DNA from: a virus
DNA: 35,974 bases
Strand: one strand, 5' to 3'
IMG/VR virus record: IMGVR_UViG_3300028610_000189
Coordinates: 1-35,974 of that record
Shown: positions 14,245-35,170 of the stretch, one piece after another
Layout of the letters: each line of letters opens with the position of its first letter
Position numbering within the stretch: the first letter of the stretch is position 1
Notes under the pieces: generated by a model
What the model was told of the DNA's origin: nothing
The model's input: only the letters and a program-made list of their open reading frames with translations
Database searches by the model: none
Program-made: the position numbers and the translations under genes

Positions 14245-14253
14245 GAGATGACG

Positions 14254-14934
14254 ATGGGTAAGAACGTTGGATTAACGTACGTGAAGGACTTCAGCTTTCC
14301 AGCTGAGCAGGGCTTCACCGGTTCCGCAGGCGTGCACCATGTCCGTGGATACAAACGAGGTGGCCGCGTGAATAAAGCGAAAGGTGGCCCAGTGAAGAAA
14401 CAGATGGGTGGCCTCATCGGTGGTCCTCAGGGTAAGTTGGGGCATGATCGTGAGATCGTGGTCGATGACGTCACAATCAGCATGCCGAAGATGAAAGGCG
14501 GCTCAGTTCATCAGAAGCTGAAACACGAAGGCGGCAAGATGGGCTACAAGTACGGTGGTCAGGTGAAGAACACCTCCAGCGAGTTCGTGCAGACGCGCGG
14601 CAAGCAAAAAACCATGGACCATGGCAACCAACCTGCACGTCGCGGTCGTAACCAGGCCGAGATCGAAGCCGGTGGCACCAAGCGTTTGAAACCGGGCCTG
14701 AAGAAGGGCGGCTACATGAAGGGTAAGGCGGACTCTGGTGGTGGTGCTTTGGCTGAAGCTGCTCTCATAAGAGTGCGGCGAGTGCTGAAGCCCAACAAAA
14801 AGATGAAGGCTCCCGACAAAGCCAAAGGCCGAGGCATGAGCAAGAAAGGCATGCCGGAAAACGTCAAGTGCAAGGGAGGCAGCGTAGGTTACGCGTCGGG
14901 TGGTCGAGTAAAAAAAGCCGAGGCGGCTCTGTAG
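14254..14934 (+). CDS. Basic Gly/Lys-rich protein, frame-0 (short) form
   Basis: About 226 aa from ATG 14254. An earlier ATG at 14248 abuts AGGAG (14243-14247) with no spacing, so 14254, 6 nt downstream, is the better start. The chain is dominated by Gly, Lys and Arg with repeats such as RGGRVNKAKGGPVKK, KYGGQVKN and GGRVKK, is probably disordered, and has no recognised domain. It may bind DNA or fill gaps in the virion; this is inferred from charge. The frame-0 C-terminus is AEAAL. An A7 run 16 nt before the stop and an open -1 frame down to 15056 suggest a second, longer product of about 267 aa. Confidence 0.65.
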   Translation: MGKNVGLTYVKDFSFPAEQGFTGSAGVHHVRGYKRGGRVNKAKGGPVKKQMGGLIGGPQGKLGHDREIVVDDVTISMPKMKGGSVHQKLKHEGGKMGYKYGGQVKNTSSEFVQTRGKQKTMDHGNQPARRGRNQAEIEAGGTKRLKPGLKKGGYMKGKADSGGGALAEAALIRVRRVLKPNKKMKAPDKAKGRGMSKKGMPENVKCKGGSVGYASGGRVKKAEAAL

Positions 14935-14957
14935 AAAAGGTCGCTAAGCGAGTCGCC
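14910..14957 (+). promoter_or_regulatory. Candidate -1 ribosomal frameshift signal (A AAA AAA plus stem)
   Basis: In frame, GTA AAA AAA GCC contains the X XXY YYZ heptamer A AAA AAA at 14910-14916. After a 5-nt spacer, GGCGGCTC (14922-14929) pairs with GAGTCGCC (14950-14957) over 8 bp with one G-U. The 20-nt loop contains the frame-0 TAG (14932-14934). Slippery heptamer, 5-9 nt spacer and stem is the known architecture of bacterial and phage -1 frameshifts (dnaX, lambda G/GT). An undercalled A in the homopolymer is the alternative. Confidence 0.6.
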
Positions 14958-15056
14958 GAGAAAGTAATGGACCGTCACGTCAGATCCCCGAGACCGAAAG
15001 GTCACGGGACTAAACCTCGTGGTGGGCGTAGCCGAGTCCGTGGCGGAGGATACTAA
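14916..15056 (+). other. -1 frame C-terminal extension of the basic protein
   Basis: The -1 frame entered at the A7 run codes 46 residues, rich in Arg, Gly and Lys (GGSVEKVAKRVAEKVMDRH, then GGRSRVRGGGY), matching the composition of the preceding protein. Its TAA (15054-15056) overlaps the next ATG as TAATG, the standard junction in this genome, whereas the frame-0 stop leaves a 121-nt gap. That is good evidence the extension is translated, either by frameshifting or because one base is missing from the sequence. An independent start at ATG 14969 is possible but has no convincing ribosome site. Confidence 0.65.
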
Positions 15057-30640: not shown

Positions 30641-31765
30641 ATGCCCAACAACTTAGACTTCCTATTTGAGGGGAGACCTCCGCAATCGGTCACAACCTAC
30701 GGGCAGACCGTGGAAAACATCCCGAAGTGGATGTCGGATTACACGCAGGGACTGATCGCGCGAGCGAATGCAGCGGCAGCTGAGCCCTACATTCCGTACG
30801 GTGGTCCCAGGATCGCGGGCTTCTCACCCGAGCAGCAGGCTGCGTTCGGCCTAACCGAAGCAAACATCGGTGCGTACCAGCCTTACCTCGAAGCGGGAGC
30901 TGCCGGGTACGGTGGTGGGCTGCAGCGTGCTGCAAACATCAGACGATCTGCCGATCCGTTCCTCCAAGCAGGCTCACGACAGTGGACGGATGAAGGCGTC
31001 GCTGAGGAGTACATGAATCCGTACATCAGTGGCGTGCTCGACCGGCAAGAGCAGCTCGCCACGCGTACATTGGAAGAGGGCTTCCTGCCGTCACTGCAGC
31101 GCACCTTTGGAGGTGCAGGTCAGTACGGTTCACGTGGTGGCACCGGCTCGATGGAAGACATCGGTATCGAAGGTGTGCGCGACATCCAAGAGGGACTCGA
31201 AGCACAGCGTCTCGAAGCACTGTCCGGAGCGTACGGTCAGGGTGCAGACATCTTTGGTGCGGACCAAGGACGGCAAGCTGAACTGGCACGCATCGTCGGT
31301 GCACTTGAAGAGGCTGGCGCACAGCAGATGTTCATGGGAGCCGAAGGACTCGGACGCATGGGCGAAGCTGCCCAGCAGATGGGCCTCACGGATGCTGCAT
31401 CGATGGAAGCAATCGGTCAGCAGACACGCGGAATGGATCAGGCAAGTCTCGATCTTGCGTACGCCGACTTCTTGGAGCAACGTCAGTTGCCGTTCGACCG
31501 AGCGAGTTGGATGTCCGAGATCATTCGTGGATTGCCTCCGCAAGGCAGAACGACGACGCGTACCGATGTGGGACCGGCTTCTGTTTACCAGCCGTCACCA
31601 CTGTCGCAACTTGCTGGTGCCTACGGTGTGTACCGTGGACTGCAACAGCCGGGAGGAGCCGAAGGCGGCTACATGGTTGACGGCGAATTCGAGGACGTGA
31701 CTGAATACGCGGAGGGTGGGTACGCGTCCCCAAAAGGAGCGCTGGTGGAGGCGGCTATGAGGTAG
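30641..31765 (+). CDS. Internal virion/ejection protein candidate, frame-0 (short) form
   Basis: 374 aa, starting on the base after the preceding stop, with GGGGAG at 30628-30633. The N-terminus (VENIPKWMSDYTQGLIARAN, GFSPEQQAAFGLTEANIGAY) is a pattern I recall from virion proteins next to ejection genes. The rest is helical and Gln/Gly/Ala-rich (LQRTFGGAGQYGSRGG, AEGLGRMGEAAQQMGL). Frame 0 ends GALVEAAMR-stop at 31765, leaving 175 nt before the next gene, unlike the zero-gap junctions nearby. The -1 frame across this gap is open and coding-like, giving a probable 432-aa product. Confidence 0.7.
   Translation: MPNNLDFLFEGRPPQSVTTYGQTVENIPKWMSDYTQGLIARANAAAAEPYIPYGGPRIAGFSPEQQAAFGLTEANIGAYQPYLEAGAAGYGGGLQRAANIRRSADPFLQAGSRQWTDEGVAEEYMNPYISGVLDRQEQLATRTLEEGFLPSLQRTFGGAGQYGSRGGTGSMEDIGIEGVRDIQEGLEAQRLEALSGAYGQGADIFGADQGRQAELARIVGALEEAGAQQMFMGAEGLGRMGEAAQQMGLTDAASMEAIGQQTRGMDQASLDLAYADFLEQRQLPFDRASWMSEIIRGLPPQGRTTTRTDVGPASVYQPSPLSQLAGAYGVYRGLQQPGGAEGGYMVDGEFEDVTEYAEGGYASPKGALVEAAMR
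31711..31735 (+). promoter_or_regulatory. Candidate -1 ribosomal frameshift signal (C CCA AAA with upstream SD)
   Basis: In frame, TCC CCA AAA GGA contains the X XXY YYZ heptamer C CCA AAA at 31729-31735. GGAGG at 31711-31715 lies 13 nt before the heptamer; internal Shine-Dalgarno sequences 10-14 nt upstream stimulate -1 frameshifting in bacteria (dnaX, established). No strong downstream stem was found by eye. An undercalled C or A is the alternative. Confidence 0.55.
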
Positions 31766-31938
31766 ATGAGTACGGCATCGGTGGACTGGCACGTGCTGCA
31801 GGTTCAGGCATCTGGAACTTCGGACAACGTGCAGTAGGAGCGCTCAGCCGATGGGCGAAGCAGTTGTACCCTGACTTCGGACGGGGTGTCGGCGCAGCAG
31901 GTGGACATCATTTGGAACTGGAACATAAACAGGATTGA
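31735..31938 (+). other. -1 frame C-terminal extension of the ejection-type protein
   Basis: Entering -1 at the heptamer, 67 sense codons run to TGA 31936-31938, 2 nt before the next ATG (31941). The encoded tail reads like real protein: GGGGYEVDEYGIGGLARAAG, then an amphipathic IWNFGQRAVGALSRWAKQLY and a polar end. Composition matches the preceding protein. A chance 67-codon open frame that ends exactly at the next gene is unlikely. It is either the product of programmed frameshifting or the true C-terminus hidden by a one-base sequence error. Confidence 0.7.
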
Positions 31939-31940
31939 TC

Positions 31941-33206
31941 ATGGCTGAACCAGCAATCACAGTTGATCAGATTATCGAACGCACGACTGACCCAGGACCG
32001 GGGCAAAGTCTGCAACAGATGATCATCAAGAATCGTGACGATGCATTGAAACGTTTGCGTGCAGGTCAGGACGCAATCAAAGAACGACGCGCCCAGCAAC
32101 AGCAACGCGACCAACAGGCTAAGTGGCTGGCGTTCGGACAAGCAATGTTGTCGCCGACACAGACAGGTGCGTTCGGTGAGAACGTCGGCATGGCTGCGGG
32201 TGCACTGCGTGGAGAAGTGGAGACTCAACGTCAGCACGAAGGCGAACGCATTCAGGAAGAGCAACTCTACGCAGCGCAGGAAGAACAGATCCGCCGAGAC
32301 TATCTGGACGACGAGCTACGTCGCGCGCAGATTGAGAAGCAAGGCAGGCTTGGCGAGTACGCTCAACGCAGGCCTGTCGGTACCGCGTACTCTATGGAGC
32401 ACCCTGAAAATCCCAACAGGTTTGCACGGGTACAGCAGATATGGGATCCCGATGTCATCGGTCCTAACGGTGAGCAGGGCATGATGACAACGCAGTACGT
32501 GGATAAACCCGGTGAAGACGGCAGCATTCCGTACGCATCTTCTCCCTACGATCTGCAACGGAGAAGTGAGTTGGAGTTCCAACTCGGACTGGAAGAATCC
32601 AAAGCGGATCGCATCAACAACGACATCATGGCAGGTCGTGAGGCTTACCCGGTCATCGAGAAATATGAACGAGTGATCGCACTGATGAAAGAGGTGGAGC
32701 ATGCTGGCTACGGTACCGGCGGCTGGGTAGCTTTGCTGCAAGGTGCCTCTGAATGGTTCGGTGTCAACACGAAAGAGGTTACCGATCTCGGTATCCTGCG
32801 ACACGAATTAGGTCAGGCAGTGCTGCTGGGTTTGAAGAATTTCCCCGGTCAGATCTCCGAGGGCGAGCGTAAGTACATGGAAGCGTTGGAGACAGGGCTG
32901 TCGAAACCGCTTGGTGTCAACATGGCACTCATTGAAGAGGGCTTGCGCATACAACGTAAGCGATACCGTCGTGGTGTTGCTGCAGCACGCCAGCATGGAC
33001 TCGATCTCGATTTACAAGCGATGGGCATCACAGCCGATAACCCCGAGGGACTGATGACGGAGGGAAGACAGTCAACTCCGTCCGCCGCACCGGGATCATC
33101 TCAACAGAATCCTATAATCGTAGGACCGGGAGTACCCGAACCTAGCGTCGGAGATTGGGTGAAGCGACCTGACGGTACCATCCGGCAGTATAGAGGGAGA
33201 CAGTAA
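31941..33206 (+). CDS. Helical internal virion/ejection protein candidate
   Basis: 421 aa. ATG 31941 is used; TTG 31935 is upstream in frame but has no support, and AGGA (31931-31934) is 6 nt before the ATG. Residues ~25-135 are a long Gln/Arg/Glu coiled coil (DAIKERRAQQQQRDQQAK, EQLYAAQEEQIRRDYLDDEL). A middle domain (GTAYSMEHPENPNRFARVQQ) and a compact C-terminal helical domain (LGILRHELGQAVLLGLKNF, PGQISEGERKYMEALETGL) follow. The ISEGERKYME element recurs in phage virion proteins as I recall. The last ~40 residues are Pro/Ser-rich. Probably a DNA-ejection component. No enzymatic motif was seen. Confidence 0.65.
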   Translation: MAEPAITVDQIIERTTDPGPGQSLQQMIIKNRDDALKRLRAGQDAIKERRAQQQQRDQQAKWLAFGQAMLSPTQTGAFGENVGMAAGALRGEVETQRQHEGERIQEEQLYAAQEEQIRRDYLDDELRRAQIEKQGRLGEYAQRRPVGTAYSMEHPENPNRFARVQQIWDPDVIGPNGEQGMMTTQYVDKPGEDGSIPYASSPYDLQRRSELEFQLGLEESKADRINNDIMAGREAYPVIEKYERVIALMKEVEHAGYGTGGWVALLQGASEWFGVNTKEVTDLGILRHELGQAVLLGLKNFPGQISEGERKYMEALETGLSKPLGVNMALIEEGLRIQRKRYRRGVAAARQHGLDLDLQAMGITADNPEGLMTEGRQSTPSAAPGSSQQNPIIVGPGVPEPSVGDWVKRPDGTIRQYRGRQ

Positions 33207-35170
33207 TGGCTGAGTGGTGGGAAGACGACGCAGCATTCGGAGAAGCCGTTGATACTGGAGACTGGCATCTCCAACCTGGTGCAACCGGGCAGCGGTTTCC
33301 TATTGATCCCGAGGTCACTCCTCAAATGATCGAAGAGCTGCCGGAGATGACGCACAGCTCGCGCATGATGGAAGGCTTCGAGACTTCAGGTGAGGCTGAC
33401 CCGTCACTGCTAGGAGCTGCAGCGACCTTGGGACGCAGAACAGGTGTCGAGTTCAGTCAGGCGTGGTTGAACATGACGACCATGGATCCACACGAGCTGG
33501 GCATGCAGCTGCAGAATCGATTCCCGGACGTGATCTCCGTACGACTCGCACCGCACCCCAAGATGCTGGAGGAGGATTGGGATCCAGAGGACGCACCCGA
33601 GTACGTTCCGATTGCGACGAATAAGATCACGGGCTACGAAGCTGTCATCAACAAGCCGGGGATCAGTGGTCAAGATGTGCTGCAGACCATCGGGCTGGTC
33701 GGTCAGTTCTTACCTGCTTCTAAAGCCACGATGATTCCTAAAGCGTTGGCTCCGCGAGTCGGCACCGCGATGGTTACTTCAGGAGCGACCGAGCACCTTG
33801 CACAAAGAGGTCAAGAGGCAGCAGGAGGTGAGTACGATCCTGAAGATGTTGCACTGGCGACAGCGTTCGGTGTTGTTCCGGAACTGTTAGCGAAGCCAGC
33901 GTTGGGACTGGCAATGAAAGGTAAGGAGATGTTCGGCAAGCTGGCAGACTTAACTAACATTCCTGAGACTGTCACCCAGGCACTGGAGTTTGCTGCAGCA
34001 CGAGGCTACAAAGTTATGACGTCCGATGCATTGCAGGAGCACCTCGCACCTGCGCAACGGATCTTCCTGAAGGTCACGGATCGTATTCCGTTCTTCGGTA
34101 CTGCGAAGCAACGTCTCAAGCAGCAGGCCCAGCGCAGCGACACCCTCAAATCAATTTCAGATGAGCTGGGCATTGACATGGATGCTGAGCTGGGTCAGGA
34201 GATTGCGCAGACTTTTGAGGAGCGCATGAAAGACTGGCGTTTCTTTGGCTTCAACACCCTCGATGGCAGACCTAGCGAAGCGATGATCAGACGTGCTTGG
34301 CTGAAGGAAGCCGGAGAGGTTGTGGACGATGTCCTCGCGAAAAAGATCAAGGCTTCGCAAATCGATGAAGCGTTAGTGGACGCTGTCTTCAACGGTAACA
34401 ACGGCAGGCGCATCAAGGAGCTGTTCGCCAAGCTTACGCCGGAAGGACAGACCATGGCGCAGCAGCGATTCCTTGCGGAAGGCATGCGGCGTGCGAACTG
34501 GAGACCCGGACAAGCGAGCAACATTGCAAATCCCGGTACGTTTGTGAAGTACCTCGATGACCACGCTAAAGCAGTGAAGAACATGTTCCCGGATCCTGAC
34601 CAGCGTGCAATGCTTGAGGGTGCGCGAGAGTTCATTCGCATCTCCGAGGATGCAGCGAACATCGGTAAAGGTGCAGGCATGACTGCAGCCATGGCAGGAG
34701 GCGGGATGTTCTACCTCTTAGATGTCGTGGGTGGAGCGATGGCTGGCGCGATGACCGGCATGATGGGGCAGGGAGTGCAGAGTGCTCCGGTGCGTAATCT
34801 TTTCTTGCGTCTTGCGCATGCTCAGGGCAAACCTGCACTCGTGAACGAGATCATGGCGCAACTGCGTCCGTTAATAGTGGCGACAGGCAATCAGGTATTG
34901 CAGGGAGAGATCGACATGCCTGAACTGAACCTGAGCATGTCGCCTGACATGATCCAAGGGCAGGCAGCAACGGGCATGTCGGCACTGCGACAGATAGTTA
35001 CCGGTGTCACAGAGAAAATAAATCCCATCTCATGGCTGGGAGGCACACCCGGAGAGGAAGGTTCGCTGGGTGGAGGTTCACCCTTCGTCGGACCTGGGTT
35101 GGATCCCGGCCCGAGTCCGGAAGACGCGGCTCTAAGACTTCAGCAAATGCAACAGGAGCAGCAACAGTAA
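33206..35170 (+). CDS. Large internal virion/ejection protein candidate
   Basis: 654 aa, overlapping its neighbours at both ends by one base (TAATG). It is predominantly helical. Seen: an N-terminal acidic region (AEWWEDDAAFGEAVDTGDW), hydrophobic segments (QTIGLVGQFLPASKATMIP; AGMTAAMAGGGMFYLLDVV, then GGAMAGAMTGMMG), a middle rich in charged helices (RRAWLKEAGEVVDDVLAKKI), and a disordered Gly/Pro/Gln tail ending in QQMQQEQQQ. A long helical protein with late membrane-like segments, placed last in the tail/ejection block, fits podoviral ejection proteins that form a trans-envelope conduit. No lytic transglycosylase motif was recognised. Confidence 0.62.
   Translation: MAEWWEDDAAFGEAVDTGDWHLQPGATGQRFPIDPEVTPQMIEELPEMTHSSRMMEGFETSGEADPSLLGAAATLGRRTGVEFSQAWLNMTTMDPHELGMQLQNRFPDVISVRLAPHPKMLEEDWDPEDAPEYVPIATNKITGYEAVINKPGISGQDVLQTIGLVGQFLPASKATMIPKALAPRVGTAMVTSGATEHLAQRGQEAAGGEYDPEDVALATAFGVVPELLAKPALGLAMKGKEMFGKLADLTNIPETVTQALEFAAARGYKVMTSDALQEHLAPAQRIFLKVTDRIPFFGTAKQRLKQQAQRSDTLKSISDELGIDMDAELGQEIAQTFEERMKDWRFFGFNTLDGRPSEAMIRRAWLKEAGEVVDDVLAKKIKASQIDEALVDAVFNGNNGRRIKELFAKLTPEGQTMAQQRFLAEGMRRANWRPGQASNIANPGTFVKYLDDHAKAVKNMFPDPDQRAMLEGAREFIRISEDAANIGKGAGMTAAMAGGGMFYLLDVVGGAMAGAMTGMMGQGVQSAPVRNLFLRLAHAQGKPALVNEIMAQLRPLIVATGNQVLQGEIDMPELNLSMSPDMIQGQAATGMSALRQIVTGVTEKINPISWLGGTPGEEGSLGGGSPFVGPGLDPGPSPEDAALRLQQMQQEQQQ

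Follow-up and report, generated by a model that had tools for sequence, protein, structure and literature searches.

One gene of the window, the whole stretch of 35,974 bases of an IMG/VR virus record that was analysed here, is very probably decoded by programmed -1 ribosomal frameshifting, so as to yield an ejection-type protein of two lengths; that the shift occurs in the cell was inferred. Ribosomes would pause as an upstream GGAGG pairs with 16S rRNA, and some would slip back one base on C_CCA_AAA, where the Pro and Lys tRNAs could re-pair with CCC and AAA. Those that did not shift would make a 374-aa ejection-type protein, while shifted ribosomes would make a 432-aa form that bears a conserved tail of 67 residues and terminates at the start of the next gene. 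Both forms were inferred to enter the virion, as two versions of the ejection protein in a set mixture, and the tail may add a helix that binds the membrane or a partner. The rate of shifting and the presence of two isoforms in the virion are likewise inferences, made without protein, ribosome-profiling or reporter data.

The first-pass annotation had proposed a programmed -1 frameshift here, citing an in-phase C_CCA_AAA, GGAGG 13 nt upstream of it, and a -1 frame that stays open for 67 codons and stops 2 nt before the next start. Each of these elements was confirmed (Table 1), the codon positions of the heptamer matching frame 0, and the proposal itself gained support in that the frame break and the stimulators are conserved, the tail evolves under purifying selection and the site has turned over repeatedly. 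The mixed ring or conduit also suggested there would be an inference only. The frame-0 protein terminates in EGGYASPKGALVEAAMR, while the 67 residues of the extension are RSAGGGGYEVDEYGIGGLARAAGSGIWNFGQRAVGALSRWAKQLYPDFGRGVGAAGGHHLELEHKQD. Given the distance from the -1 stop to the next ATG, ribosomes in the long frame would terminate at the start of the next gene.

Table 1. Features of the two putative frameshift genes in the window, and homologues of the first gene sorted by the product that depends on the shift.
Feature	Position or members	Strand	Basis
Gene in frame 0 (short product of 374 aa), homologous to phage DNA ejection proteins	30641..31765	+	sequence, homologue matches
Shine-Dalgarno-like GGAGG, 13 nt 5' of heptamer	31711..31715	+	sequence; site-A codon invariance
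Slippery heptamer C_CCA_AAA, in phase	31729..31735	+	codons CCA 31730-31732, AAA 31733-31735
Frame-0 end 3' of slip site, GALVEAAMR + TAG, stop 9 codons on	31736..31765	+	sequence
-1 frame extension, 67 codons + TGA (TGA 31936-31938)	31735..31938	+	sequence; pN/pS
Weak 8-bp stem 3' of slip site	31740..31783 (31740-31747 with 31776-31783)	+	z -0.15
Next gene, 421 aa; ATG 31941, 2 nt past -1 stop	31941..33206	+	sequence
Transglycosylase / DNA transfer protein	33206..35170	+	phrog_770 1.2e-14
Second gene, -1 frameshift conserved; frame 0 encodes 228 aa, basic and rich in Gly/Lys	14248..14934	+	sequence, homologues
Slippery heptamer A_AAA_AAA, second gene	14910..14916	+	sequence
-1 extension, second gene, 46 codons + TAA overlapping next ATG (TAATG)	14916..15056	+	sequence
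Extension-type genes (n = 14)	window, L001, L002; L012, L014, L020, L021; L028, L030, L031, L034, L035, L036, L042		
Truncation-type genes, long in frame 0 (n = 13)	L004-L007, L009, L016, L019; L013, L017, L023, L032, L033, L039		

Changes 3' of the slip site were counted by frame to give pN/pS for the tail. For the -1 extension of the window gene, pN/pS was 0.15-0.34 in its own frame and about 0.8-2.5 in the other two; across all four groups with broken genes it was 0.15-0.59 in the long frame and mostly about 0.8-3.8 in the others. The -1 tail was thereby judged to be under purifying selection, and in its own frame only. This result bears on the idea that the shift chiefly sets expression of the next gene, ribosomes in the long frame ending near its start and re-initiating, and those in the short frame ending about 90-220 nt upstream. 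The end of the long frame ranged from 15 nt upstream of the next start to 16 nt within the next gene in all 27 slip-bearing genes described below (27/27), but coupling alone has no need of selection on the amino acids of the tail, and contact between stop and start is common in the window genome anyway. As the chief explanation, coupling was considered unlikely. The two roles are nevertheless compatible, and because the long frame always ends near the next start, a programmed frameshift that makes two products could possibly have an added effect on the next gene.

Comparison within this group of uncultured bacterial viruses was based on 34 distinct homologous genes that remained after dereplication (the window gene and those drawn from L001-L043). 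Exactly one strong in-phase heptamer of the form X_XXY_YYZ was present near the 3' end in 27 of the 34, belonging to one of three site types: CCCAAAA (site A), GGGAAAA (site B) or GGGAAAG (site C). A -1 shift is needed to reach the conserved tail in 14 genes, whose overlaps each hold a single in-phase heptamer; the frame-0 stop falls 1-12 codons past the heptamer, and the -1 tail comprises 46-81 residues. The other 13 carry the tail in frame 0, where it is the -1 frame that closes, after 3-8 codons, so producing a short form. With a single slip site per gene and opposite frames, each gene would therefore give one short and one long output, the polarity differing between genes. Homologues without a frame break had been named in advance as grounds for refutation; such homologues do exist, yet in these 13 an in-phase slip site persists, its outcome reversed.

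The heptamers could not be attributed to chance, since the background rate of in-phase XXXAAA[A/G] was 0.29 per 1000 codons (65,476 codons from other genes of the same loci), compared with one per gene in 27/34. The dipeptide PK was spelled C_CCA_AAA in 10/10 site-A genes but C_CCA_AA[AG] in only 2/94 cases elsewhere; for GK, the spelling G_GGA_AA[AG] occurred in 10/268 cases elsewhere. An exact scan of all IMG/VR contigs with the site-A signal, a 25-mer (GGAGGGTGGGTAYGYGTNCCCAAAA), matched 14 contigs, all of them members of the family. Some genes had further heptamers at codons 7-13 (EGKPP), which were not uniform across the family and indicate that composition alone is able to produce heptamers; moreover, counts across relatives are not independent events. 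Five ingroup members had no heptamer, L022, L025 and L027 encoding the long form only and L037 and L038 the short form only. These genes would make one form, so dual output appears not to be universal, and they have putatively lost the slip site or never had one. Tail and slip site were both absent from distant relatives (L040, L041, L050-L128 and Caulobacter phage RW). In a sister group (L054-L058, L060, L065), the homologous gene has ...YWKPxxGWGxx as its conserved end; no heptamer is present, and the -1 frame at the stop continues into the next gene.

Among the seven site-A genes that are long in frame 0, the codons for AEGGYPK, at and before the slip, showed zero pairwise mismatches, the lowest run in a gene with a mean mismatch of 0.37 (211 invariant-residue columns). 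No other stretch of these genes is under such strong synonymous constraint as the slip signal. Given that they do not require a shift to make the long form, usefulness of the short form, or of the shift itself, can be argued from this constraint, and the short form is probably also selected. The heptamer might instead be a 'savior' site, at which shifting restores the long protein after a frame-disrupting mutation and the short form is a functionless by-product. This would fit the window gene and the 13 other genes whose long form depends on the shift, as well as the fact that the long tail is the conserved part. It does not account for retention of the slip site in 13 genes that already have the long form in frame 0, nor for the synonymous constraint just described, and was thought quite unlikely.

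Programmed slippage with two useful products also had to be distinguished from independent translation of the tail, as a small protein initiated inside the overlap. Short -1 ORFs near a stop are reachable by re-initiation. The tail frame lacked ATG and GTG in the window, L001 and L002, with only late TTG codons (two in the window), and so has no plausible start of its own; in 13 relatives, the tail is fused in frame 0. A separate protein was accordingly rated very improbable.

Ribosomal slippage was further supported by the sequences flanking the heptamer. The codons immediately 5' of the slip were GCG GAG GGT GGG TAY in 10/10 site-A genes, a spelling that these genes use in 0/44 further occurrences of the peptide motif; this invariance places GGAGG 13 nt 5' of the heptamer. 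Shine-Dalgarno sequences that stimulate -1 shifting work at a spacing of 9-14 nt (PMC5009743), and the window GGAGG satisfies this rule for a 5' stimulator. The site-B and site-C genes had hairpins starting about 5-6 nt 3' of the heptamer (14 nt in L028), with 90-100% of cells paired in the stems, as against 24-50% when the stems were slid. Covariation in these hairpins was thin, at one two-sided change per site-B or site-C group and not beyond shuffles, and so few changes do not suffice as evidence by themselves. In the window, the stem downstream of the heptamer was not better than shuffles (z = -0.15).

Slippage of RNA polymerase on the C4A4 run would yield identical products. With only 3-4 C and 4 A, however, the runs fall short of those on which transcriptional slippage is known, and codon phase is conserved together with the Shine-Dalgarno and hairpin stimulators, as would be expected of ribosomes; this origin of the second frame has hardly any likelihood. 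Ribosomal frameshifting is thus the reading carried forward. Comparison of the gene sequences demonstrated the slip site, the conserved tail, selection in the -1 frame, the stimulators, and a short output that is kept where frame 0 is long.

The same break was found by IMG/VR scans in L001 (91% identity) and in L002 and L003 (86%), at TAC CCA AAA, where the run is C3A4 instead of the C4A4 of the window, and in all four the tail ends in HKQD before the stop. Because these relatives keep the break with three C rather than four, a miscounted run was excluded, and the proposed disproof, a corrected C5 or A5 run that would give one frame, did not materialize. That the break is an artefact of sequencing or assembly, or an indel newly arisen in a single phage, was suggested only by its position at an indel-error-prone C4A4 run and is already refuted by L001-L003: separate contigs at 86-91% identity retain the break, run length is not its cause (C3A4 in L001 and L002), and a further 11 distinct genes have their breaks at heptamers of two other types.

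At least six changes of site type and at least four of polarity were required on a tree built from 40 rows of the N-terminal part. L014 (3001-4158) had an N-terminus near that of L002 and yet carried a site-B cassette, with a slip and tail of the L012 type and no site A; tail cassettes have apparently recombined in this gene. In L007, a site-B-like tail was joined in frame, such that GGGAAAA was out of phase, and site A was kept. The putative pattern is therefore of one working slip per gene, moved or swapped with tail cassettes. One interpretation is that selection maintains a fixed proportion of short and long ejection protein and is indifferent to the assignment of frames; with slippage near one half, polarity would flip cheaply, and the product would be a mixed ejection complex. 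This interpretation is tentative, its chances being put a little below even. If true, one and the same signal would serve to extend the product in certain phages, as in T7, and to truncate it in others, as in dnaX.

The window protein was taken as an ejection (internal virion) protein on the basis of homology and context, its function being inferred. It matched no Pfam family and no PHROG at threshold. The 'ejection-type' label of the first-pass annotation rests instead on its homologues, 27 of 45 aligned sequences matching phrog_4287, 'DNA ejection protein' (best 1.1e-15; L013 2.9e-10), and on L047 (4992-8549), where a homologous N-terminal domain occurs in one 1185-aa protein with Peptidase_S74 chaperone and SLT transglycosylase domains. 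The gene follows a 655-aa tape-measure-like gene and precedes the 421-aa gene and the transglycosylase/DNA transfer protein, the last of which supports an ejection module; an SU10-type adaptor gene sits upstream. Identity as a tail assembly chaperone of the lambda type (G/GT) was rejected on gene order and homology: such a gene should be small and directly 5' of the tape measure, and this one encodes 374/432 aa and lies downstream of the 655-aa gene. A phage database yielded nothing when searched with DNA and distant relatives only when searched with protein, and no relative was found among genome contigs (prophages). A structure model of an unbroken relative, L004, was helical almost throughout, the tail forming a helix of its own, at low confidence (pLDDT 65, pTM 0.30). 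It matched nothing in PDB, and its BFVD matches were confined to phage proteins, for the most part uncultured and uncharacterised; for these reasons, no claim of function was based on fold. The tail had also been described as amphipathic and membrane-active. The first property was borne out by calculation in the window (an 18-aa moment of 0.65, reached in 2/300 shuffles). Moments were high throughout the window group, whereas many relatives had weak ones, and membrane activity remains a guess.

Among the nearest known counterparts is gp65 of Caulobacter phage RW, which matches phrog_4287 at 1.6e-9 and is homologous to the family in its N-terminal part, with a similar gene order; unlike the window gene, neither gp65 nor phrog_4287 has the C-terminal tail or the slippery heptamer. 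Phage frameshifting is known mainly from tail chaperones and capsid proteins, and no report of it in ejection or internal virion proteins was found in the literature searched, coverage of which was incomplete; here, it concerns an ejection-type gene with 27 distinct slip-bearing representatives. In gene 10 of T7 and T3 (10A/10B), a -1 slip near the stop of a virion gene likewise adds a C-terminal extension to some copies, and the major capsid protein of Kuravirus uses GGGAAAG (PMC9965538), the same heptamer as the L031 and L028 groups. Both of these are capsid proteins, whereas the window family is ejection-type and its relatives swap the product that depends on the shift. Lambda gpG/gpGT (G_GGA_AAG) shares the -1 slip and the class of heptamer, but is a chaperone of long-tailed phages encoded 5' of the tape measure, while the window gene is of virion type and lies between a tape-measure-like gene and a transglycosylase. 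E. coli dnaX (tau/gamma) and carboxysome csoS2 (PMC5009743) are long in frame 0 and short in -1, as are the 13 truncation-type members, and dnaX also uses an upstream Shine-Dalgarno and a 3' hairpin; these are cellular genes of a single polarity, where the phage family has both. There is precedent for -1 frameshifting in structural genes of phages, namely T7 gene 10, the Kuravirus capsid and lambda G/GT; what is unusual is that polarity is exchanged among members of a single gene family. This enables a rare comparison, in which the same protein and the same two products are obtained by opposite decoding logic with one slip kept per gene, and suggests that such phages assemble their ejection complex from two forms of one protein. 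Gene callers cut off or miss such tails.

A second gene of the window appeared to have a conserved -1 frameshift, on A_AAA_AAA (Table 1), its 46-residue extension being SRGGSVEKVAKRVAEKVMDRHVRSPRPKGHGTKPRGGRSRVRGGGY. Heptamer and tail were kept in six further distinct homologues (L197, L198, L199, L203, L208 and L209), while L205 and L207 had neither, and pN was well below pS for the tail in the -1 frame only. The mechanism is less certain here, because an A7 run can also be read via polymerase slippage. Both frameshift genes (14248-14934 and 30641-31938) had similar low-complexity motifs just 5' of the slip (GGY..., HGGLARYARGG and GYASGG), which were present in relatives too.
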